Shown: positions 9,517-38,585 of the stretch, in pieces | Numbering within the stretch: position 1 is the first letter of the stretch | How the letters are laid out: each line of letters starts with the position of its first letter | IMG/VR virus record: IMGVR_UViG_3300010885_034796 | Location: 1-49,081 of that record | Length of the DNA: 49,081 nt | Origin: a virus | Reading direction: 5' to 3' (one strand) | Program-made: the position numbers and the translations under genes | Notes under the pieces: generated by a model | Databases searched by the model: none | Told to the model about the DNA's origin: nothing | The model's input: the letters and a program-made list of their open reading frames with translations, nothing else

Positions 9517-10485
9517 TTATTGAATGCCTTTTATTTTTTTCCACTTATCTATAAGAAATTTAATGAAATCTAATAACGACATATTATTTTTTCTCATAAA
9601 GTCTGCAACAATTACGGCATATTTATAATCGGAACTACTAGGCTTTTTCGCATTAAATAAATCAGTTGAAATAGACTTTTCTGCATCTTTTTCATTACCC
9701 CACTCTAAATCACGAGCAACATAATAAAGTAAATTGTGCAATTCTTTCGATGCCCGTTTAGTTAAATGGCTAGTATCATTTTTTTGTATGAGTTCTACAA
9801 TTCCAGACATAGTGGAATCTCTATTATGAAATTTCTTTAAACCTTTTTTGCCTTCAGATTCCCCATGACTCTTATAATATTCTTGATATCCCAGCATTTC
9901 ATCTTTTGTTCTAGTGTTTAAAGGAATTGATCCACTAATAATATTACTAGAATCGGCAACTGATATAGAGTTTCTTTTGTCTAAGAGCCTAAAAGAATCA
10001 CTATCATTATAAAGAAAGGTTTTAATATTGCTTTGTTTACCTAATATCAAAAGTTCTCTAACTCGTGGGCTTATTCTTTCATCAAATTTTGCTAAAAATA
10101 CATGGATTTCTTTAATAGCCGTATTAGGAATTATATTTTTTTTAGAAAAAACACGATCTTCTGATTCTCTATGTCGATCAGTTCTATCAAACCCAGACCA
10201 ATAGTCTATCGGCTTAACAATATAATTATTATTAAACCACGAACCATCTAAAACAAACATGACAGAACCTGGTCCAGAATATTTGCTATAATCGCCAAGC
10301 TTTGTTCTAGCTAAACTTAAAAAATACGGATGCCCCTTTGGTGCATACGATTCCTCGCTCTTATTACCGGCCACACTACTAAGTTCAAAATTTCCAGATT
10401 TCATTATACTTAATGCCGCCACAGGACCAGTATAATGATAAAGTATGGCAGAAGCAGCTTCGGTTAAAAAATCAGATATACGCAT
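9517..10485 (-). CDS. Possible ADP-ribosyltransferase-like protein with capsid-targeting N-terminus
   Basis: This 322-residue protein begins MRISDFLTE, a match to the T4 internal-protein targeting peptide with an (L/I)xE cleavage site after residue 9. Next comes ILYHYTGPVAALSIMKSG (His17-Tyr18), then YFLSLARTKLGDY, VMFVLDGSWF, IVKPIDYW and ESEDRVF (Glu109), then IKEIHVFL. This order suggests an ADP-ribosyltransferase fold with an H-Y-E-type triad, comparable in concept to T4 Alt, which is packed in the head and injected. The C-terminal half (160-322) is lysine-rich and unknown. There is no Shine-Dalgarno; TATAAATA plus five bases precedes the ATG. The fold call is by eye and tentative. Confidence 0.5.
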   Translation of the reverse strand: MRISDFLTEAASAILYHYTGPVAALSIMKSGNFELSSVAGNKSEESYAPKGHPYFLSLARTKLGDYSKYSGPGSVMFVLDGSWFNNNYIVKPIDYWSGFDRTDRHRESEDRVFSKKNIIPNTAIKEIHVFLAKFDERISPRVRELLILGKQSNIKTFLYNDSDSFRLLDKRNSISVADSSNIISGSIPLNTRTKDEMLGYQEYYKSHGESEGKKGLKKFHNRDSTMSGIVELIQKNDTSHLTKRASKELHNLLYYVARDLEWGNEKDAEKSISTDLFNAKKPSSSDYKYAVIVADFMRKNNMSLLDFIKFLIDKWKKIKGIQ

Positions 10486-10489
10486 AATG

Positions 10490-11044
10490 TTATTTATATA
10501 TTCTGAATAATGGCGTTTCTCTTACCAAATTTGTAGAAGAAGTATCAGATGATATTGATATATTTGAATTTCTTTTTTTCCAACAATAATTACTATATTC
10601 AGTTTTTGTCATACGAGACATAGCAGGCAATCCGAATATTCTTGGATCAATAAACTTACTAAAAACAGTATCTATCCAAACTCCACCATTATCAGGAAAC
10701 CAAAGGGCTGTTCCAGTTTTAATTTCTAAATTTCCATTGCGATCTAAAATGAGATAGATGTTTTCACCTCGCCATTCTTTTAAATGCCCTAATCCATCCG
10801 GAACAACGCCATCGACAACATATTTTGATATATATTCCAATGCTTTTGCGTTAATTAATGCATCTTCATCGCCTTTAACTAACGATATTTTATATTCTTT
10901 CAATGCCTTCTTATACCAAGGCAACGGAACTTTACTATTATCAATATCTTCTTCAGACAACTCTCTAATATTAGAGATTAATTCAGCTATTTTTGGCTTT
11001 CTGGTAGCTTCAAACAAAAGAAGTTCTTTTAGTGATCTCGTCAT
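10490..11044 (-). CDS. Unknown protein with probable capsid-targeting N-terminus
   Basis: This 184-residue protein starts MTRSLKELLLFE followed by ATRKP, which fits a targeting peptide with an LxE cut after residue 12. The rest is unfamiliar: an acidic helical stretch (residues 20-75), then a beta-rich part with GENIYLILDRNGNLEIKTG, and a basic, serine-rich C-terminus. Its ATG overlaps the stop codon of the gp14-like gene (TAATG), so translation is coupled. It sits four bases upstream of the ADP-ribosyltransferase-like gene. Confidence 0.65.
   Translation of the reverse strand: MTRSLKELLLFEATRKPKIAELISNIRELSEEDIDNSKVPLPWYKKALKEYKISLVKGDEDALINAKALEYISKYVVDGVVPDGLGHLKEWRGENIYLILDRNGNLEIKTGTALWFPDNGGVWIDTVFSKFIDPRIFGLPAMSRMTKTEYSNYCWKKRNSNISISSDTSSTNLVRETPLFRIYK
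10491..10498 (-). promoter_or_regulatory. Late promoter box TATAAATA placed for a leaderless mRNA
   Basis: On the minus strand TATAAATA is followed by ACATT and then the ATG at 10485. The box overlaps the last codons and stop of the upstream gene. By T4 spacing, transcription would start at the A of ATG. Confidence 0.65.
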
Positions 11045-21290: not shown

Positions 21291-22160
21291 ATGGAAATTA
21301 GAACAACAAAGAGATATGGATGGCGTCCAGACTTGCCGGATTATAGAGATTGGGCATATGCTAATACGCATTATAAAGATTGGGCCTATTCTAATAGACA
21401 TTTATTGGGCGCGGTAGTTGCTCCCATAGACACTTCCCCTGAACATGCTGTTATTCATACATCAAATGGTCCTGTAGTAGTGCCTGAACCCGATGCGGTA
21501 ATAACCGTATTACCAGAAGCAATAAGTATGCGTTCTAAAATGCCACCAGTATGGAATCAAGGACAACTAGGAAGTTGTACTGCTATGGCTGCTTCTGCAT
21601 TATTTCAATATGCACACGGTGATGGTCCATATTCCGTTTTACATATATACTATTATGAGCGTTTATTAGAAGGAACGGTAAATATTGATTCTGGTGCGCA
21701 AATAAGAGACGCCATTCAAGTATTAGCAAATACGGGAGTTGGTCTTGATAAAGATTGGCCATATGTTATTTCTAATTTTGCAGTACAACCACCATTAATC
21801 GAACTAATGGAGGCCACACAAAATAAGGCAATTTCATATTCTCGATTAGAACCTTCGGAATATCGTCTTTGCCTTGCACAAGGTCATCCATTTATTATAG
21901 GAATTACCGTTTATAGTAGTTTTGAAACTCCTGAAGTCGCCGTGAGTGGAATAGTTCCTATGCCGCAGGCCGGAGATAAAATGATGGGCGGACATGCGGT
22001 TTGTGTTGTTGGATATAATAACAATATAAATGGCAAAAAATATTATGAAGTTAGAAATTCTTGGGGAGAAACTTGGGGAGATCAGGGGTATTTCTGGATT
22101 CCTGCCGAGTATCTCGAAAATCCAAATTTAGCCACAGATGCGTGGACAATTAGGAAATAA
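21291..22160 (+). CDS. Papain-like (C1) cysteine peptidase
   Basis: This 289-residue protein has the papain triad: Cys96 in NQGQLGSCTAMAASALF, His235 in GGHAVCVVGYN and Asn256 in VRNSWGETWGDQGYFWIPAEYL. The usual Trp after the catalytic Cys is Thr here. There is no signal peptide, so it acts in the cell or in the virion. Residues 1-40 contain a short repeat (DYRDWAYANTHYKDWAYSNRH), typical of the N-terminal part of bacterial C1 proteins found without a classical propeptide. A hairpin-controlled late promoter precedes it and a strong hairpin follows. Targets are unknown; virion protein processing or a host protein are options. Confidence 0.85.
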   Translation: MEIRTTKRYGWRPDLPDYRDWAYANTHYKDWAYSNRHLLGAVVAPIDTSPEHAVIHTSNGPVVVPEPDAVITVLPEAISMRSKMPPVWNQGQLGSCTAMAASALFQYAHGDGPYSVLHIYYYERLLEGTVNIDSGAQIRDAIQVLANTGVGLDKDWPYVISNFAVQPPLIELMEATQNKAISYSRLEPSEYRLCLAQGHPFIIGITVYSSFETPEVAVSGIVPMPQAGDKMMGGHAVCVVGYNNNINGKKYYEVRNSWGETWGDQGYFWIPAEYLENPNLATDAWTIRK

Positions 22161-22266: not shown

Positions 22267-23700
22267 TCATATAACTACAGGCATTGGCATATCTTCATCA
22301 GAAAATAATTCATCTTCATCAATAAACTCTCTCAAATCACCAGTATGATTTGACCAACCCAAAACTACATCCAACATTCTTATACATAGTAACATGGCAG
22401 ATACCAAGTCATCATGTGATCCAGACTTTGAACGAAAACTATTTTCTACTGAAACAAATGTCTTCAATTCTTTAATAAGCTGATTACTTTTAATAGTCAT
22501 TCTGTCAGATTCAATTAAACTCTTAGCTCTCGCACACGCAGATAACTTTTTTCTATTATCCGTATTCAATCCTTTTCGGAATCTACGAGATTGTCCTTTT
22601 CGTTTCTTCTCACTAACAAAACTTCCAGGAAAACGTTCCTCTCCAGTATCCTCAATAATTTGAAGAATAGCTTCTCCTAAACCATTATTTTCAATTGTCC
22701 AAAATATTTCCGGATCACCCATTTGTTGAGGATCATCTCTTAAAGTTTGATCTATAAAGAATAATATCTTCATCAATTGCGCAACTTGTTGCCTTGGCGC
22801 TGTTTGATTATGCTGCCATTCTGCAACCTGTGTCATATTTGGCAATTCATATACTTGGATAGCAGCATAATCATACCCTGTACCAACACACGGGTCTAAT
22901 GCGGCTATATATGTCTTATTTGGTTCTGGCTCTTTAAACCATCGCACAGTGCCCGTATAGAATTCGGGATTAACTCCTTGCATTCTAGATAATGTAAGAG
23001 GATTAATCAGAGTTTCATCATCGGTAACAAATTCGCATTCGAACTCCTGGGCAAATCTTGCAGGACCAAGACTTTCTCTAAACGGTTTCGCCCACAGTTC
23101 GTCTCGTTCTGGATGTTCCCACCAAGGAACCTTAACAGCATAAAAGTCATTTATACCAAGATCATTATCTCTGGGATTGCCAAATTCATCAGTATTATTA
23201 ATTGCACCCTTCCAAATTTGAGCAAACTGATCTTCATCTGATTTTGGCGTTGATGTAATAATACATGATCCACCAGTAGAAAGAATCGGCTGAATAGAAG
23301 TCCAAAAAGCCTCTGCCTTATTAGGATGCACGAACGCAAATTCGTCGCATTGATGCGAAGATATGCTATTGTTACACAATATTTTATGGCTTTCGCTATT
23401 GAAAATATCATAAACATCTTTTATTTTTATATTTTCAATATTTTTAATAATATGAAACTCTTCATTTATGCCATCTATACGATCACCAATATTAAAATCT
23501 TTGGCAACTTTTTCTGAAAAATTTTCATAAAATCTATGATCCAGAGTAGCATCAATTGATTTCCCATTATCAAGATATAGGCGAACACCGTCGCGTTCTC
23601 CGGTATTTTTGATAATACCGTCAAAGTTTTCCCAGACTAAATCTGGAGATAAAATTTCATATCTTGTATTTTTTTTGAAATTCTGTATCTGCTTTTTCAT
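22267..23700 (-). CDS. 17: Large terminase, C-terminal half, fused to the C-part of a split intein
   Basis: The protein is 477 residues from the ATG at 23700, which has GAAAGG five bases upstream; an earlier ATG at 23748 lacks a site. Residues 1-117 are the C-part of an intein: block B GKSIDATLDHRF (TxxH), IGDRIDG, then DVYDIFNSESHKILCNNS and terminal SSHQ. The extein begins Cys118 as CDEFAFVHPNKAEAFW (Walker B), then IITSTPK (motif III). The nuclease domain carries AALDPCVGTGYDYAA and SHDDLVSAM, as in T4 gp17. The start overlaps the end of the HNH gene by 44 bases. Trans-splicing with the N-half is needed to make a full ATPase-nuclease for DNA packaging. Confidence 0.85.
   Translation of the reverse strand: MKKQIQNFKKNTRYEILSPDLVWENFDGIIKNTGERDGVRLYLDNGKSIDATLDHRFYENFSEKVAKDFNIGDRIDGINEEFHIIKNIENIKIKDVYDIFNSESHKILCNNSISSHQCDEFAFVHPNKAEAFWTSIQPILSTGGSCIITSTPKSDEDQFAQIWKGAINNTDEFGNPRDNDLGINDFYAVKVPWWEHPERDELWAKPFRESLGPARFAQEFECEFVTDDETLINPLTLSRMQGVNPEFYTGTVRWFKEPEPNKTYIAALDPCVGTGYDYAAIQVYELPNMTQVAEWQHNQTAPRQQVAQLMKILFFIDQTLRDDPQQMGDPEIFWTIENNGLGEAILQIIEDTGEERFPGSFVSEKKRKGQSRRFRKGLNTDNRKKLSACARAKSLIESDRMTIKSNQLIKELKTFVSVENSFRSKSGSHDDLVSAMLLCIRMLDVVLGWSNHTGDLREFIDEDELFSDEDMPMPVVI
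23350..23700 (-). other. Split intein, C-part (IntC, 117 residues)
   Basis: It contains intein blocks B and F but not block A: TLDH, then VYDIF...SHQ directly before Cys+1. Its opening RYEILSPDLVWENFDGI is close in style to the IntC of the AceL-TerL split intein (an atypically split intein, also in a large terminase). The last residue is Gln, not the usual Asn, which a minority of inteins tolerate. Confidence 0.85.
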
Positions 23701-24856
23701 TATACCTTTCAAATATATCCAGAGAAGACATTTTTTCTGTTGACTCATTTATTACTTTTTTAAAATACTCAAATTCTTTTTGAGATTTGTATTTTGAATA
23801 TCCTGTTCTTTCGCACAAATCTTCAAAAGAAATAGTGCTTTTATGGCTCTTTTTTACATTTTCTTTCCAATATATAGATTGAAGATTATTTCTGTCCGAA
23901 ATAAGCCAAGGACTAATACCATTTTTAAATCCATGTATTATGGAATAGATATGATCTACGTGATACGCGCCTTCAGTTCCAGCCCTGCCCGTAATTTTTC
24001 CATCTAGCACCTCTTTTTTATGTATGACCGTTAACCAATTAACAAAATTTCTATAATATACCCATTCTTTATTTTCTTTTATTGAAGAGACTCTGCCTTG
24101 TTTTGCCAAAGTTTCTCGTTGTTTTGGTCTAGCAACTGCGGCTATTTTTTGATACCCGCTGATACCATCTTCTCCTATTTTCATAAGAGTTTCGCGGGTT
24201 TTTCTTCCCTTTTTGGAATTGATACTTTCGCCATTTTCATCTAATTCTGCACGAACTTGTGTTGCTTTAATAACAGAAGCTTGATGCTTTGTTATTCCAT
24301 CTATCGTTTCTTCTGCTAGTGACATAGACAAGATATTTTTATGTCTGGCGCACGACAATGCTTGGTCTGGATATTTTTTTGAGAATTCTTCTACAGACAT
24401 TAGAAGAATTCCTTCTATATATTGTTTTTTGATATTAAGAGTTCTTATACCCAAAACTGGGCAAATGATAAAATTAATATTCTCATCGGTATTTGGAAAT
24501 AGATATAACTCCGCATTTCTTTGTTTATTTCTATTAATAAATGTTTTAATTTTAGAACCATGTGATGGATTTGTATTGCCCACAAGATTTGCATACTTGA
24601 TAAGTTCTTTTTTTTCTTCTTCTTTGTTTGAGGATGAATATCCTCGTTCATATGTTTTAAATGCCAAATTAGGACGTATGGCAATATTGTTTATAACACA
24701 ATACATTCTTTCGGACATAGATGCATCTCCAAAATCACGAGTATGTTCCATTACAAAATTATATAAATCTTTGTATTGTTTTTTGAAAACCAAACCTTTT
24801 CTTGCAAAATATGGAGCAAGTTCTGTTAGTAATTCAATTTCAGTCGCACAGGTCAT
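23657..24856 (-). CDS. HNH homing endonuclease between the split-intein halves
   Basis: The protein has 399 residues from the ATG at 24856; the frame opens at a TTG at 24868. Near residue 297 it has AYHVDHIYSIIHGFKNGISP, then NNLQSIYWKENVKKSHK, the His-Asp-His and Asn-Lys pattern of a phage HNH endonuclease group. The N-terminal half has a degenerate recognition region (ERMYCVINN...NLAFKTYERGYSS), and the middle has helix motifs (RETLMKIGEDGISGYQKIAAVARPKQRETLAKQG) likely for DNA contact. The gene overlaps the terminase N-half by 17 bases and the C-half by 44 bases. It is a free-standing homing endonuclease that would spread the split-intein arrangement. Confidence 0.8.
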   Translation of the reverse strand: MTCATEIELLTELAPYFARKGLVFKKQYKDLYNFVMEHTRDFGDASMSERMYCVINNIAIRPNLAFKTYERGYSSSNKEEEKKELIKYANLVGNTNPSHGSKIKTFINRNKQRNAELYLFPNTDENINFIICPVLGIRTLNIKKQYIEGILLMSVEEFSKKYPDQALSCARHKNILSMSLAEETIDGITKHQASVIKATQVRAELDENGESINSKKGRKTRETLMKIGEDGISGYQKIAAVARPKQRETLAKQGRVSSIKENKEWVYYRNFVNWLTVIHKKEVLDGKITGRAGTEGAYHVDHIYSIIHGFKNGISPWLISDRNNLQSIYWKENVKKSHKSTISFEDLCERTGYSKYKSQKEFEYFKKVINESTEKMSSLDIFERYNEKADTEFQKKYKI

Positions 24857-26417
24857 ATAGTTCTTCAAGAGATACCTCTTTTATTTCGCCAGTTATCTTG
24901 TCTCGTACTTGTACAGTAGTTTTTCCGCCAAGACAATATAGCAACGTGATTGAAAGACCACGACCAGCATCGGTTGACGTTGCGCGAGAAACAATTTTAG
25001 AGCCATTATCGAATGTCAGTGTACCTTTATTATATTCGGTAACACCCGCTCTAAGAAAATCTGGCATATTTTCGTAAGCATATCTAATACGATCCATAAT
25101 TTCTAATGCTTGAACAAACTTGTTCGCTGCTACCAAAATTGTAGTATCTGGAGTGAACATTGCCTTCCAAAGTAAAAATCCAGCAGCACATGTAGTATTA
25201 TGTGTTGGAACAAGAGTTTTTCCTGCCAAAAATAAATGATCTTTATTATCTACTTGTAAACAACGAACAGGAACACTATTTGTTTCTAATATTTCACTAA
25301 TATAAAAACGAGTATTTTTTGGATGATTTTTTACTTCACTCATTCTTTCCAATTTTCTTGGAATAGAACAGACTTTTTGTGTAGTACAAAAGGTTAATAT
25401 GAAACAATCTTTTCTATATGTTTTTTTAACTCGCAATGTGCTTTTAATTCCCAATGATGAAAGTAATATACGCACTTGTTCTATAAATTCTTTGTTGGAT
25501 TGATAAAATCTACAAACTCCATTTTTTTCAACAGTTCCATCGGTATCCATAAGACCGCGCAATAATTCTAAACGATTTTCTACTGAAGTAAAAATCATAG
25601 AATTGGGAATTTTTTTAGATAGGCCATTTATTCTTAATTTAGATCGTAAGCCTACTACATTAAAATTTCCTGTATTTGTCCTTCTTTTATCTGGTCTAAA
25701 TTCAGATACCGAAAATCCTTTTTTATTAAATTTATCAGCATAATGATAATAATCATCTTTTGAACAAGTAATTCTGCCGTCCGAGGAACTACCGTCTCCT
25801 AACCAACAGCCAAAAACATATGGTTCTATAATAGTTTCATTATCTGAAAATTGAATAGGTTTAGAAATTTCAATACTAATACTTTTATATTTGGCATAAA
25901 GCTCTTTCATTTTTCCAGTATCAACTGTGACTATTTCTCCCTTGCGAGTTGGAAGACGTATATTCCATAAATGTCCTTCATCTGCGACAAATGTTTCCCC
26001 ATGTGCAAATTTAACTGTATAACATTTATGATCATACATTGTGTCAGTAATAAAATTAATCTTGGCGGGTTTTCCATTTTGTCCATAGATCGTATCTCCG
26101 ACATTCAAATCGCCTAATTGAACAAATCCATCTGGAGTAAGTATGGGCGTATCTAGCGCCAGCGATTTTCCCATTTGTCTGGCTGTTAGTGCAATGGTAA
26201 ATCGATTGTCTGCAAATGATTTTATTATATGTTCTTGAAAAGGATATGGTTTAAATGGAATAGCACCTTTAAGAGGATGCTGAATTTTCATAAACTTACG
26301 CATAAAATACATCGGATCGCTAACGCATCTAGCTAACTGTCTATATTCAGTTCTAGTAAATGCTGTTTTTTGATAAGGACGCTTTGTTACAGTAGTATCT
26401 TGTTTTGGTCTGGCCAT
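24840..26417 (-). CDS. 17: Large terminase, N-terminal half, with a contiguous intein and a split-intein N-part
   Basis: This 525-residue protein begins MARPKQDTTVTKRPYQ. The extein has FKPYPFQEHIIKSF (adenine-binding Q) and ALTARQMGK (81-84 QMGK), where Walker A is cut by intein 1 (residues 85-407). After it come TTCAAGFLLWKAMF and LVAANKFVQALEIMDRIRYAYENMP, FLRAGVTEYNKGTLTFDNGS, and RGLSITLLY before Cys495. Residues 495-525 (CLGGKTTVQVRDKITG...LYDLCD) are the N-part of a second intein, ending at TGA. Removing intein 1 rebuilds ARQMGKTT, as in T4 gp17. A GATAAATA box lies upstream; the Shine-Dalgarno is weak. Confidence 0.88.
   Translation of the reverse strand: MARPKQDTTVTKRPYQKTAFTRTEYRQLARCVSDPMYFMRKFMKIQHPLKGAIPFKPYPFQEHIIKSFADNRFTIALTARQMGKSLALDTPILTPDGFVQLGDLNVGDTIYGQNGKPAKINFITDTMYDHKCYTVKFAHGETFVADEGHLWNIRLPTRKGEIVTVDTGKMKELYAKYKSISIEISKPIQFSDNETIIEPYVFGCWLGDGSSSDGRITCSKDDYYHYADKFNKKGFSVSEFRPDKRRTNTGNFNVVGLRSKLRINGLSKKIPNSMIFTSVENRLELLRGLMDTDGTVEKNGVCRFYQSNKEFIEQVRILLSSLGIKSTLRVKKTYRKDCFILTFCTTQKVCSIPRKLERMSEVKNHPKNTRFYISEILETNSVPVRCLQVDNKDHLFLAGKTLVPTHNTTCAAGFLLWKAMFTPDTTILVAANKFVQALEIMDRIRYAYENMPDFLRAGVTEYNKGTLTFDNGSKIVSRATSTDAGRGLSITLLYCLGGKTTVQVRDKITGEIKEVSLEELYDLCD
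24843..24935 (-). other. Split intein, N-part (IntN, 31 residues)
   Basis: The segment starts with Cys495 and has a block A pattern (CLGGKTTVQVRDKITGEIKE). It stops after only 31 residues, before block B. This break point is that of atypically split inteins (IntN about 25-35 residues) and not of DnaE-type split inteins. Confidence 0.85.
25197..26165 (-). other. Contiguous LAGLIDADG intein in the Walker A motif
   Basis: This 323-residue intein spans Ser85 to Asn407. Block A is SLALDTPILTPDGFVQLGDL and block B includes GETFVADEGHLW. The endonuclease has two LAGLIDADG-type motifs, YVFGCWLGDGSSSDG (200-214) and LLRGLMDTDGTVEKNG (285-300). Blocks F/G are VPVRCLQVDNKDHLFLAGK and VPTHN, with Thr408 as +1 residue. 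It sits between GK and TT of the P-loop. Confidence 0.9.
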
Positions 26418-35633: not shown

Positions 35634-38585
35634 TTATAATTGAATAGTAGACGAGACCGCAGTAGCCAAACTCTGCCCAGCATTCAAGATACGAACTGGG
35701 ATATAAATGAACTCGATAGCATTTACTGGAATAATAGCAATGTCTACCCATAATTGATTAGCAGCAACCCGCGCCGCAGTATTATTTGTAGAATCACAAA
35801 CAACCGCATAATCGGTAATTCCCTGCAAGCTTACTAAGCCATTCAAGAAGTTGGTAACAACTGTTGTTACCGCGCTTTGCGTTTGTGTATCATTTTGTTC
35901 AAACAAGAATGGTTTTAATATATTATCCAAATTATAAGAAATATAATTAACCAAACGAACCACGTTAACGCGATCCATCGCAGTATTGCTTCCAGCTTGT
36001 AAGGTTTTTTGGCCATATACAACTAATCCTCTACCAACTATGTATGCGATAGGGTTAATATTATTTGAATATAATGTATCTCTTTGGCCTTGATTCAATA
36101 TTACGGGCTGATAATCATTGCCAGCAGTCAAGTATCCGACCGTTGATGCATTTGTAACCAATCCGCGAGTAAATCCAGCAGGAGCATACCAAGGATAAGC
36201 AACTTGGTCATTATAGGCGATAGCACAAAGCGCAATAGATGATGGTGGAATCATAACTTCATTGCCACTCAAATCAGCCGATAGTCCCCATGGATAATAT
36301 AGACCCACGTATTCGCTTGACACTGTTAAGCCGTCTTCTCCTGTAGAAGAAGCATTCTTGGCATTTTTTGCCCAATTCATGACTGGAGTTCCGGATGGTT
36401 GTAGACGGATTGGTGTATCACCAACAACAAAGGCTACATTCAACATAGATTCATTTAGAACAGTCATTTGTGGAATTAATTCAGAATATCCTGGAGCCGC
36501 AATCAAGTTAAAATAAACTAATTCAGAACGAATATCTTCATTTGTTTGAATAACTGATTCTAGCGCACGAACGATCATAGTACGTTGAGCTTTTCTTCCC
36601 ATATAAGGAGCACCCTGTGGTGTATTTCCGCTTGCGGTAACCCAACGTCCTGGATTATCAATAGCTGGGAAAATTGCAATGCTACTTCCATTAGTATAAG
36701 TATGAGTTGTATAGTCAGTTGAGTTATAATTTCCCGCTTCAAAGTAAGTAGGATTCCATTCTTTTACGTTATATGTTGATGCGCGGGTATTAAACAATAA
36801 CATACCATCTGGATATGTTCTTGGATCGGGAGCATCTGGATCAACGAAGTTAGAAAGGGCCAAGTCTTCAGGAGAAATAGAATTTAAACTATAACCGGTT
36901 CCATTGTTATTTGTATAAGTAGTGCCACTATCTTGGCGAGAATCAGCAAATACTATACCAAACGGAGAAGTATCGTCCGTTTTATCGATTAATGTCCATC
37001 TTTTTGTAGAAGCCGCATAGCGATATAGCATTGGATAATTTTCAAGATCGCTTGAATCAATCCATAAGTCATTATCGACTAAAGCGGTATTGTCGCTTTG
37101 TAACATTGGTTTTGATCCAGAAATAATGACACCTTTTGGGTCAGTTCCTGGGAATTTTCTTGAATATCCAAGCCACTGCGTTCCATCGCCGTACATAATG
37201 TCGGCTTTAAGATCAGTATTATACCAATATGTCCCTGCATCTGGAGTATATGTTGGTGTAACTATTGAAGCTTCATAAATCAAATTAGTCCAAATCGATC
37301 CAGTCCAACGACGAAGTTGTTGAGTTCCGGTAGCGGTATCATATCCAACATATAGTGTTCCCATGGCGGGAATACCAAATGCAGAAGTTGCCGCTTGATC
37401 TTTTGATGTTTCGCTATCTAATTTTGTAGAATCGAATTGATAAAATGGTGCATTTATCGTGGTCCACCCAGTCGATGAATTGTAAAGTTTTACAACCCAA
37501 GATGCTCCGTTATTAGGATAACTTCCTTTGATCCATACCGAACCATATGCCGAATTTGTAGGATATTGTGCGTTATTTGTTTGATATAAAGCAACACCAT
37601 TATAAGTTTTTGCAGAAATACCAAGAGTACCAAGCGCATTTCCAGTAACATTGCTAATAGAAATTGATTCACCTACTGTGTTTTTAATTTCTAAAGCACC
37701 AGAACTTGTAACAGATGCAATAATATGTGCATTTGCTAGTTGAGCATCTGCGTTTATTATAGTTACAATTTCAGCCAATGCACCAGTTCCCGAAGTAAAG
37801 CCACCATGGCCGTCCGGAATTTGGTCAAATGCTAGTGTTTTTGAATTAATACTAATTGTATCAACGAGTGGGGCAATCATATTTGGTGCAGGAGAGCCGA
37901 CAATTGTAGTTGGGCGCTTGGCCTTCCACTGAGAAGAACCAACCTTATACCAAGAACCACTGATGCGCTCATATACTATATTATCCGATTGCGTGGTAAC
38001 GACTGTAAAATCACCATCATTTCCAAAATATGCAGCAGGAGTATCCGTGAGCATATCGCCGCCACCAGCTAGATTAGAATGAGAGAATCTCAAAGTTGGC
38101 TGACTTGCCCATGCCAATGCCGCAGTTTGATTGCCATTGCTTTGGAATATACCAAATGAAGTTGAGCTTAAATCGAGCCAATATGTTCCATCCGGAACAG
38201 GGCTAACTGGAGCGGTAATAGATGGAGATAATTGATGTAAATCAATATTTGCACGAAGAACATAGCAACGGCTAGAAATACCAAGATATTGATATGCCGC
38301 CAACAAACCATATTCATTTAATTCGTAACCCTGAACTGGCGTTCCTTGAACAGTTTTAAATGATGGGGTTCCAAAGTTCTGAATCAATTCGCGCTGAGAT
38401 GTTGCTAAGAACAATGATCCCGCTTGATTAGGAACAGTTGCTGGCGCAATACCGCTTCCAGATGGAGCAGTTTTGTTTGTTGCAGTGGCCAGAACAATCA
38501 AAGGAATTGTTCCAGGACCTGCTCCGCCGTAGAAAGATTCGTCAATAATTTGTACCGATACTCCGGGACTAACCAATGTTGGCAT
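35634..38585 (-). CDS. 18: Tail sheath protein (T4 gp18-like), enlarged
   Basis: This 983-residue protein begins MPTLVSPGVSVQIIDESFYG, typical of myovirus sheaths, with QRELIQNFGTPSF and YGLLAAYQYLGISSRCYVLRAN near residue 100. The C-terminal third is strongly sheath-like: RTMIVRALESVIQTNEDIRSE, YYPWG, IAYNDQVAYPWYAPAGFTRG, LYSNNINPIAYIVGRGLVVYGQ and a final FIYIPVRIL. T4 gp18 is 659 residues; here about 500 residues (roughly 130-640) are inserted and contain repeated Trp/Asp modules (GTYWLDLSS, GTYWYNTDLKADIMYGDGTQW, NDLWIDSSDLENYPMLYRY). They probably face outward as decoration. GGAG precedes the ATG. Confidence 0.88.
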   Translation of the reverse strand: MPTLVSPGVSVQIIDESFYGGAGPGTIPLIVLATATNKTAPSGSGIAPATVPNQAGSLFLATSQRELIQNFGTPSFKTVQGTPVQGYELNEYGLLAAYQYLGISSRCYVLRANIDLHQLSPSITAPVSPVPDGTYWLDLSSTSFGIFQSNGNQTAALAWASQPTLRFSHSNLAGGGDMLTDTPAAYFGNDGDFTVVTTQSDNIVYERISGSWYKVGSSQWKAKRPTTIVGSPAPNMIAPLVDTISINSKTLAFDQIPDGHGGFTSGTGALAEIVTIINADAQLANAHIIASVTSSGALEIKNTVGESISISNVTGNALGTLGISAKTYNGVALYQTNNAQYPTNSAYGSVWIKGSYPNNGASWVVKLYNSSTGWTTINAPFYQFDSTKLDSETSKDQAATSAFGIPAMGTLYVGYDTATGTQQLRRWTGSIWTNLIYEASIVTPTYTPDAGTYWYNTDLKADIMYGDGTQWLGYSRKFPGTDPKGVIISGSKPMLQSDNTALVDNDLWIDSSDLENYPMLYRYAASTKRWTLIDKTDDTSPFGIVFADSRQDSGTTYTNNNGTGYSLNSISPEDLALSNFVDPDAPDPRTYPDGMLLFNTRASTYNVKEWNPTYFEAGNYNSTDYTTHTYTNGSSIAIFPAIDNPGRWVTASGNTPQGAPYMGRKAQRTMIVRALESVIQTNEDIRSELVYFNLIAAPGYSELIPQMTVLNESMLNVAFVVGDTPIRLQPSGTPVMNWAKNAKNASSTGEDGLTVSSEYVGLYYPWGLSADLSGNEVMIPPSSIALCAIAYNDQVAYPWYAPAGFTRGLVTNASTVGYLTAGNDYQPVILNQGQRDTLYSNNINPIAYIVGRGLVVYGQKTLQAGSNTAMDRVNVVRLVNYISYNLDNILKPFLFEQNDTQTQSAVTTVVTNFLNGLVSLQGITDYAVVCDSTNNTAARVAANQLWVDIAIIPVNAIEFIYIPVRILNAGQSLATAVSSTIQL

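Follow-up and report, generated by a model that had tools for sequence, protein, structure and literature searches.

How can a terminase large subunit be made from a gene that is broken inside its ATPase site? This question is raised by a fragment of a jumbo phage (IMG/VR record IMGVR_UViG_3300010885_034796; the whole stretch of 49,081 nucleotides is called the window here). On its minus strand, the terminase large subunit gene terL is broken in the Walker B motif, at LLY/CDEFAFV (slashes mark putative splice junctions), and an endonuclease-like open reading frame (ORF) lies between the N-half and the C-half. Very probably, a mobile split intein with a homing endonuclease gene between its halves has broken this terL at its Walker B strand. 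The features are listed in Table 1.

Table 1. Features of the broken terL in the window and, in the last row, of a related locus. aa, amino acids; IntN and IntC, N-terminal and C-terminal parts of the split intein.
Feature	Position	Strand	Remarks
TerL N-half	26417..24840	-	525 aa; C-terminus ...SITLLY/CLGGKTTVQVRDKITGEIKEVSLEELYDLCD and stop
TerL N-extein part A, residues 1-84	26166..26417	-	reaches Walker A Lys (RQMGK); intein-free relatives have RQMGKTTCAA
Contiguous class-3-like LAGLIDADG intein, S85-N407 of N-half	25197..26165	-	HLWNI, VRC, THN/T
TerL N-extein part B, residues 408-494	24936..25196	-	ends TLLY, the first half of Walker B
IntN, 31 aa	24840..24935	-	Cys1, block A; stop 24840-24842; homologous IntN in most related loci
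HNH-type endonuclease ORF, free-standing, 399 aa	23657..24856	-	putative homing endonuclease between the halves
Shine-Dalgarno-like AAAGG of C-half	23705-23709	-	within the HNH ORF; read from sequence
TerL C-half	23700..22267	-	477 aa; ATG at 23700
IntC, 117 aa	23350..23700	-	TxxH block B ATLDH, block F, terminus ISSHQ
TerL C-extein, 360 aa	22267..23349	-	Cys+1 (CDEFAFV), remaining ATPase and RNase H-like nuclease domain
Homing-site-like segment in L036			GACGAGTTTGCATTTGTATAAATA

The Fractured terL and Its Split Intein

Part B of the N-extein matches Terminase_6N and PHROG profiles and shows 52–82% identity to relatives at the Walker B site. The C-extein matches Terminase_6C (5.6e-10) as well as PHROG 36964, a terminase large subunit. 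The match of the N-half to PHROG 36964 ends at profile position 522 and that of the C-half begins at 517, so this profile is contiguous over the break. The intein contains Cys1, a TxxH block B (ATLDH) and SHQ/C, and the motif set of class 1 HINT domains is present. IntN is short and the split lies between blocks A and B. The earlier note had placed the split at TLLY/CDEFAFV, with intein pieces of 31 and 117 aa and an endonuclease ORF overlapping the N-half by 17 bases and the C-half by 44 bases; every one of these coordinates is present in the frames of the window. As the start of the C-half, the ATG at 23700 is favoured over that at 23748 because of the Shine-Dalgarno-like sequence just before it.

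Two scans of IMG/VR provided the related loci, which are numbered with L here. The scan with the C-half gave 80 loci, with IntC encoded in about 50 of them as well, and the scan with the endonuclease alignment gave 58 loci, on contigs partly overlapping those of the former. A single-sequence search with the window HNH protein found no relatives, owing to overly specific peptide patterns. With near-duplicates removed, the loci whose intein sits at precisely the Walker B codon number 43, counting the window. All 32 loci of the window lineage end in HQ/C, while the remaining 11 end in KN/C or SN/C. The terminal Gln, once considered new at this locus, is thus a conserved trait of one lineage, and the Pab PolII intein (2lcj) likewise ends in Gln. 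Because 32 loci share the IntC type of the window, a chance arrangement is ruled out. The proposed arrangement itself is kept in tens of loci: terL holds a split intein, the split falls between blocks A and B, and a free-standing endonuclease ORF separates the halves.

The insertion is missing at the exact point from intein-free homologues of the host gene. These read TLLYCDEFAFV without interruption (L002 and L003), or have one residue, C, L, M, A or I, between LLY and DEF. Several of these alleles already have the Cys in place; that of L002, for example, is GLSITLLYCDEFAFVPPNK.

Natural contiguous inteins are also found at the Walker B codon, in L015/L016 and in L028/L031; the latter version is also seen as a fragment in L029. 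The intein of L028, a natural contiguous homologue of the window intein, was modelled with AlphaFold2 (AF2) on the intein alignment A4. The model (predicted local distance difference test score, pLDDT, 90; predicted template modelling score 0.84) has a HINT fold, and Foldseek with it finds inteins at 2.5e-7. Disorder is confined to residues 37–48, the junction where split relatives hold the endonuclease. The HINT fold of the intein at this site is thus predicted with confidence for L028.

These facts allow a mechanism to be proposed. One transcript would yield the N-half (extein and the 31-aa IntN) and the C-half (the 117-aa IntC and extein) as separate translation products. Together, IntN and IntC would form a HINT fold and splice in trans, giving back the ...TLLY-CDEFAFV... 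of intein-free relatives. In the N-half, excision of the class-3-like intein in cis would restore GK-TT of Walker A. The HNH protein would cut intein-free terL near the Walker B site and spread IntN, endonuclease and IntC as a block.

The Endonuclease

The ORF between the halves is called HNH-type based on its motif and position. H-x-D-H at residues 299–302 (DNA 23951–23962), N324 and N333 are invariant or nearly so in an alignment of 20 homologues (A1). The ORF matches PHROG 5104 (1.6e-15), the function of which is unknown. Long endonucleases are encoded by the window, L042, L045 and L082; that of L007 is intermediate (327 aa), and the short ones, of ~290–310 aa, are without the first 100 residues. 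In L118–L132, the equivalent of residues 101–258 is joined to another C-terminal domain with an IAIEYQ pattern, together with a KN/C IntC. Judging from the sequence pattern alone, this domain could be EDxHD/Vsr-like.

Alternative Explanations

Genes can exist in pieces without splicing, with the halves assembled as stable subunits, as is reportedly the case for Aeh1 NrdA, which is split by mobE. An unspliced split gene with an intervening endonuclease in T4-like phages was reportedly described by Friedrich in 2007, and such genes are known from this phage group (PMC2988022). Applied to the window, this explanation appears very unlikely. The break holds complete intein ends (Cys1, TxxH and SHQ/C) conserved in 32 loci, it lies inside the Walker B strand, and natural contiguous inteins occupy the same codon. 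Phage endonucleases are often intron-borne, and the halves might be joined at the RNA level into a contiguous intein, either by a group I or group II intron holding the endonuclease or by recoding. This is the least probable of the alternatives. No intron RNA is present by an Rfam search (no match at E ≤ 1), nor is there space for an intron, since the coding sequences of both halves overlap the endonuclease ORF. Furthermore, split loci without endonuclease keep the stop codon, and only 15 bases (L043) or 4 bases (L046) separate the IntN stop from the open IntC frame.

The locus could instead be a dead remnant, with a decayed intein or endonuclease and a non-functional terminase. The window IntC is divergent and endonuclease remnants exist in the relatives L044 and L018, but in the window, the residues of the splice junctions and of the endonuclease motif are all intact, as are both open frames, and the 49-kb record contains one terL and no other. 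A dead remnant is therefore hardly to be expected.

Several points weigh against a fractured, trans-spliced terL. The window IntC has a best identity of 50% and a long branch in the IntC tree. Pfam and PDB sequence searches with the endonuclease ORF gave no match, and none to HNH; its AF2 model has a pLDDT of 81, and its best fold matches, to Cas9 HNH domains, are weak (E 0.4–0.95). The HNH label of the earlier note is thus carried by the conserved H-x-D-H...N...N motif, and neither by Pfam nor by the fold search. A second, intact terL could lie outside the 49-kb fragment. Splicing, assembly, cleavage and homing are all inferred, for every member.

Loss of the Endonuclease and Proposed Re-Fusion of the Intein

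In the IntC tree, two contiguous forms and four split forms without intact endonuclease (L026, L043, L044, and L046) are placed separately among endonuclease-bearing loci. The simplest reading of this scattered placement is at least six independent losses of the endonuclease, two of which gave contiguous inteins. Among the split loci without endonuclease, L026, L043 and L046 keep the stop codon.

The IntC of L028 is 97% identical to that of the split L036, and the IntC of L015 is 100% identical to that of the split L055. At the contiguous junctions, the IntN sequence continues past the former stop region and is followed, after palindromic filler, by the final 3′ stretch of the endonuclease/IntC overlap; the frame is restored. 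The filler is GTCACTCAATAATTTATTGAGTGAC in L028 and an 18-bp hairpin in L015. An assembly error is unlikely because the junction of L028 recurs in three metagenomes and that of L015 in two. We take these junctions to indicate that the inteins of L028 and L015 were once split and became contiguous mini-inteins again.

Exchange of Cassettes

L132 and L019 are near-isogenic. Over 809 bases covering TerL, IntN and the N-terminal part of the endonuclease (L132 2344–3152), they differ by one mismatch. The C-terminal part of the endonuclease and IntC are unrelated, and in the 300 bases that begin with the Cys+1 codon, identity is back at 99%. The borders thus lie within the endonuclease and at the intein/C-extein junction. 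A difference limited to the 3′ part of the endonuclease and IntC is as expected of a mobile element. The same pattern is shown by L022 and L114, which have the same allele in another metagenome. The same IntN therefore stands with both IntC types.

A Homing-Site Mimic before the Endonuclease Gene

In 26 of the 43 loci, a sequence resembling the homing site is accompanied by the exact motif TATAAATA. This mimic lies just after IntN in all 19 intact short-HNH loci and in 7 of 10 EDxHD-type loci. It reads GA[CT][GA]A[GA]TTTGCATTTGTATAAATA or near, and 12–17 of its 18 bases equal the local DEFAFV codons. It abuts the late-promoter motif TATAAATA, and the endonuclease gene starts a few bases further on. 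Shuffling gives p ≤ 0.01 in most loci. Third-position identity is 0.68 in the mimic versus 0.50 in the C-extein copy, suggesting selection on the DNA. A recent copy of the local C-extein is ruled out as the source of the mimic, since permuted C-exteins resemble it at least as closely as the local one does.

In the pooled loci, TATAAATA is found upstream of 36 of 610 ORFs, whereas its 56 permutations average 9.9. About 17 of the 36 occurrences belong to endonuclease genes, and the excess for other genes is therefore modest. The enrichment is confined to the region upstream of ORF starts; in the window overall, 11 copies versus 8.8 expected show no enrichment. The motif is broken in L018 and L044, where the endonuclease is lost or reduced.

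For these relatives, the preferred reading is that the mimic at the late promoter might serve as an operator for autorepression, by analogy with I-TevI; we see about an even chance of this. In the rival reading, the mimic would be a scar left by endonuclease capture (collaborative homing) and kept by selection. The mimic is absent from the window, from all long-HNH loci and from L007, and autorepression therefore does not describe the window.

Together with the exchange pattern, the mimic would fit a modular, self-regulating element, a proposal that could equally prove right or wrong. Module 1 would consist of IntN, the homing-site-mimic operator at the late promoter and the DNA-binding half of the endonuclease. 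Module 2 would consist of the nuclease half and IntC (HNH with ...HQ, or EDxHD-like with ...KN), one IntN serving both IntC types. Repeated loss of the endonuclease would yield endonuclease-free split inteins or contiguous mini-inteins.

Regarding the position of the motif, TATAAATA stands 4–5 bases before the ATG in 20 of the 36 upstream occurrences, mostly of endonuclease genes. With T4-like start sites, this spacing would mean nearly leaderless late transcripts. In the window, TATAAATA at 10491–10498 (minus strand) is 6 bases before an ORF that starts at 10485, and further ORFs of the window are similar.

The Second Intein in the Walker A Loop

The earlier note had also reported a second intein in the same gene. 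This intein is real: it interrupts Walker A, and it matches class 3 DnaB inteins in PDB (6bs8, 1e-23) and LAGLIDADG_3 (4.8e-13). It is considered to start at Ser85 rather than Leu86 because intein-free relatives read GK/TT. In another locus, L133 (1748–6141), the Walker A site looks split too, with IntN, a 362-aa ORF and IntC, next to the split Walker B site. This 362-aa ORF shows weak matches resembling restriction endonucleases.

A Second Split Site in TerL and Neighbouring Genes

About 105 residues into the C-extein, a second site (site 2, FE/CEF; the Walker B site is site 1) is occupied by inteins kin to Cat/AceL-TerL. The Cat structure 6dsl matches site-2 IntC at 5e-12. The site-2 intein is split in L045, L047, L050, L053 and L060, with GIY-YIG, HNH/NUMOD3 or DUF7487 endonucleases. 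Counting all loci with a second split intein at this site adds L048, L058 and L059, and most have their own endonuclease. Terminases split at both sites are encoded in three pieces, so two trans-splicing events would be needed to join them. In L053 (4836–4868), a copy of the C-extein start (KFVIVDETLNN vs. EFVIADETLVN; 22 of 33 bases, p = 0.001) precedes the HNH/NUMOD3 endonuclease gene. L060 is suggestive (p = 0.12) and six others have no such copy; with significance limited to L053, the mimic is not claimed as a general feature of site 2.

Directly upstream of terL, a divergent TerL paralogue with only the ATPase is encoded in L021 (3608–4432; Terminase_6N, 2e-18) and L044 (3256–4092), and also in L020, L025 and L042. 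It is intein-free and ends at the position of site 2 (...EYECEI and stop). In the window, a papain-family cysteine protease gene (21291–22160, plus strand; PF00112, 1.7e-17) adjoins terL on the opposite strand. The window also encodes an unusually long tail sheath protein of 983 aa (35634–38585, minus strand; PHROG 10581).

Comparison with Known Systems

The origin of split inteins, and why many are without endonuclease, is an old question. At the Walker B site, the empty, split with endonuclease, split without endonuclease and again contiguous states stand side by side in natural near-relatives, so that the direction of change is readable from the junction DNA. The pairs L036/L028, L055/L015 and L019/L132 offer natural material for direct tests, and the IntN/IntC pairs are candidate tools with short IntN.

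The inteins AceL-TerL, GOS-TerL and Cat have IntN + IntC of 25 + 104, 37 + 115 and 30 + 104 aa (PMC11766414). They share with the window intein a phage TerL host, a short IntN with a long IntC, a split between blocks A and B, and Cys+1. The likeness to AceL-TerL noticed earlier holds to this extent, but not for the site or for sequence kinship. The AceL/Cat site is probably site 2, as site-2 IntC matches 6dsl, in which CE follows the intein. Natural AceL/Cat-type forms end in Asn (SN or KN in site-2 loci), whereas the window IntC ends in Gln. The window IntC has no match to 6dsl at E ≤ 1, unlike site-2 IntC; it shows no detectable sequence kinship to AceL/Cat and is placed in another allele family. 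Since the AceL/Cat-type intein occupies another site of TerL, the Walker B intein is a separate insertion. The Walker A intein of the window has the W/C/T residues in common with class 3 DnaB inteins (Msm, Mch) and differs from them in its TerL Walker A host and its LAGLIDADG domain.

Dassa in 2009 reportedly described "fractured genes" from metagenomes, in which split-intein halves flank a free-standing homing endonuclease gene. This arrangement is common to the window; the nuclease motif of the window is HNH-like, the endonucleases of that report are said to be of another family, and L118–L132 appear to carry an EDxHD-like domain. The mobE/nrdA genes in pieces have no splicing element at the break, whereas the window has intein motifs on both sides. 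An HNH endonuclease between split-intein halves had been expected to be new, but the phage MIJ3 is a precedent, with a split PolB intein and an HNH-family endonuclease ORF between the gene parts (PMC6892783). Both are jumbo phages with this arrangement, the host gene being PolB in MIJ3.

I-TevI of T4 represses its own late promoter via a homing-site-like operator (15 of 20 nt), and the I-TevII and I-TevIII genes are arranged alike (PMC2988022). As in the site-1 relatives (12–17 of 18 nt), the sequence touches a late promoter that lies immediately before the endonuclease gene. The I-TevI system belongs to an intron and the site-1 relatives to a split intein, where binding and repression are suggested by analogy; if true, the mimic would extend this principle of regulation from introns to inteins.

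Precedents already exist for fractured genes, for TerL inteins with an atypical split (PMC11766414) and for a split intein that harbours an HNH endonuclease (MIJ3 PolB, PMC6892783). As far as the literature compared shows, what is new is the combination of the Walker B site and this family of endonucleases, together with the natural series covering gain, exchange, loss and re-fusion, and the mimic of the homing site found at the promoter of the endonuclease.
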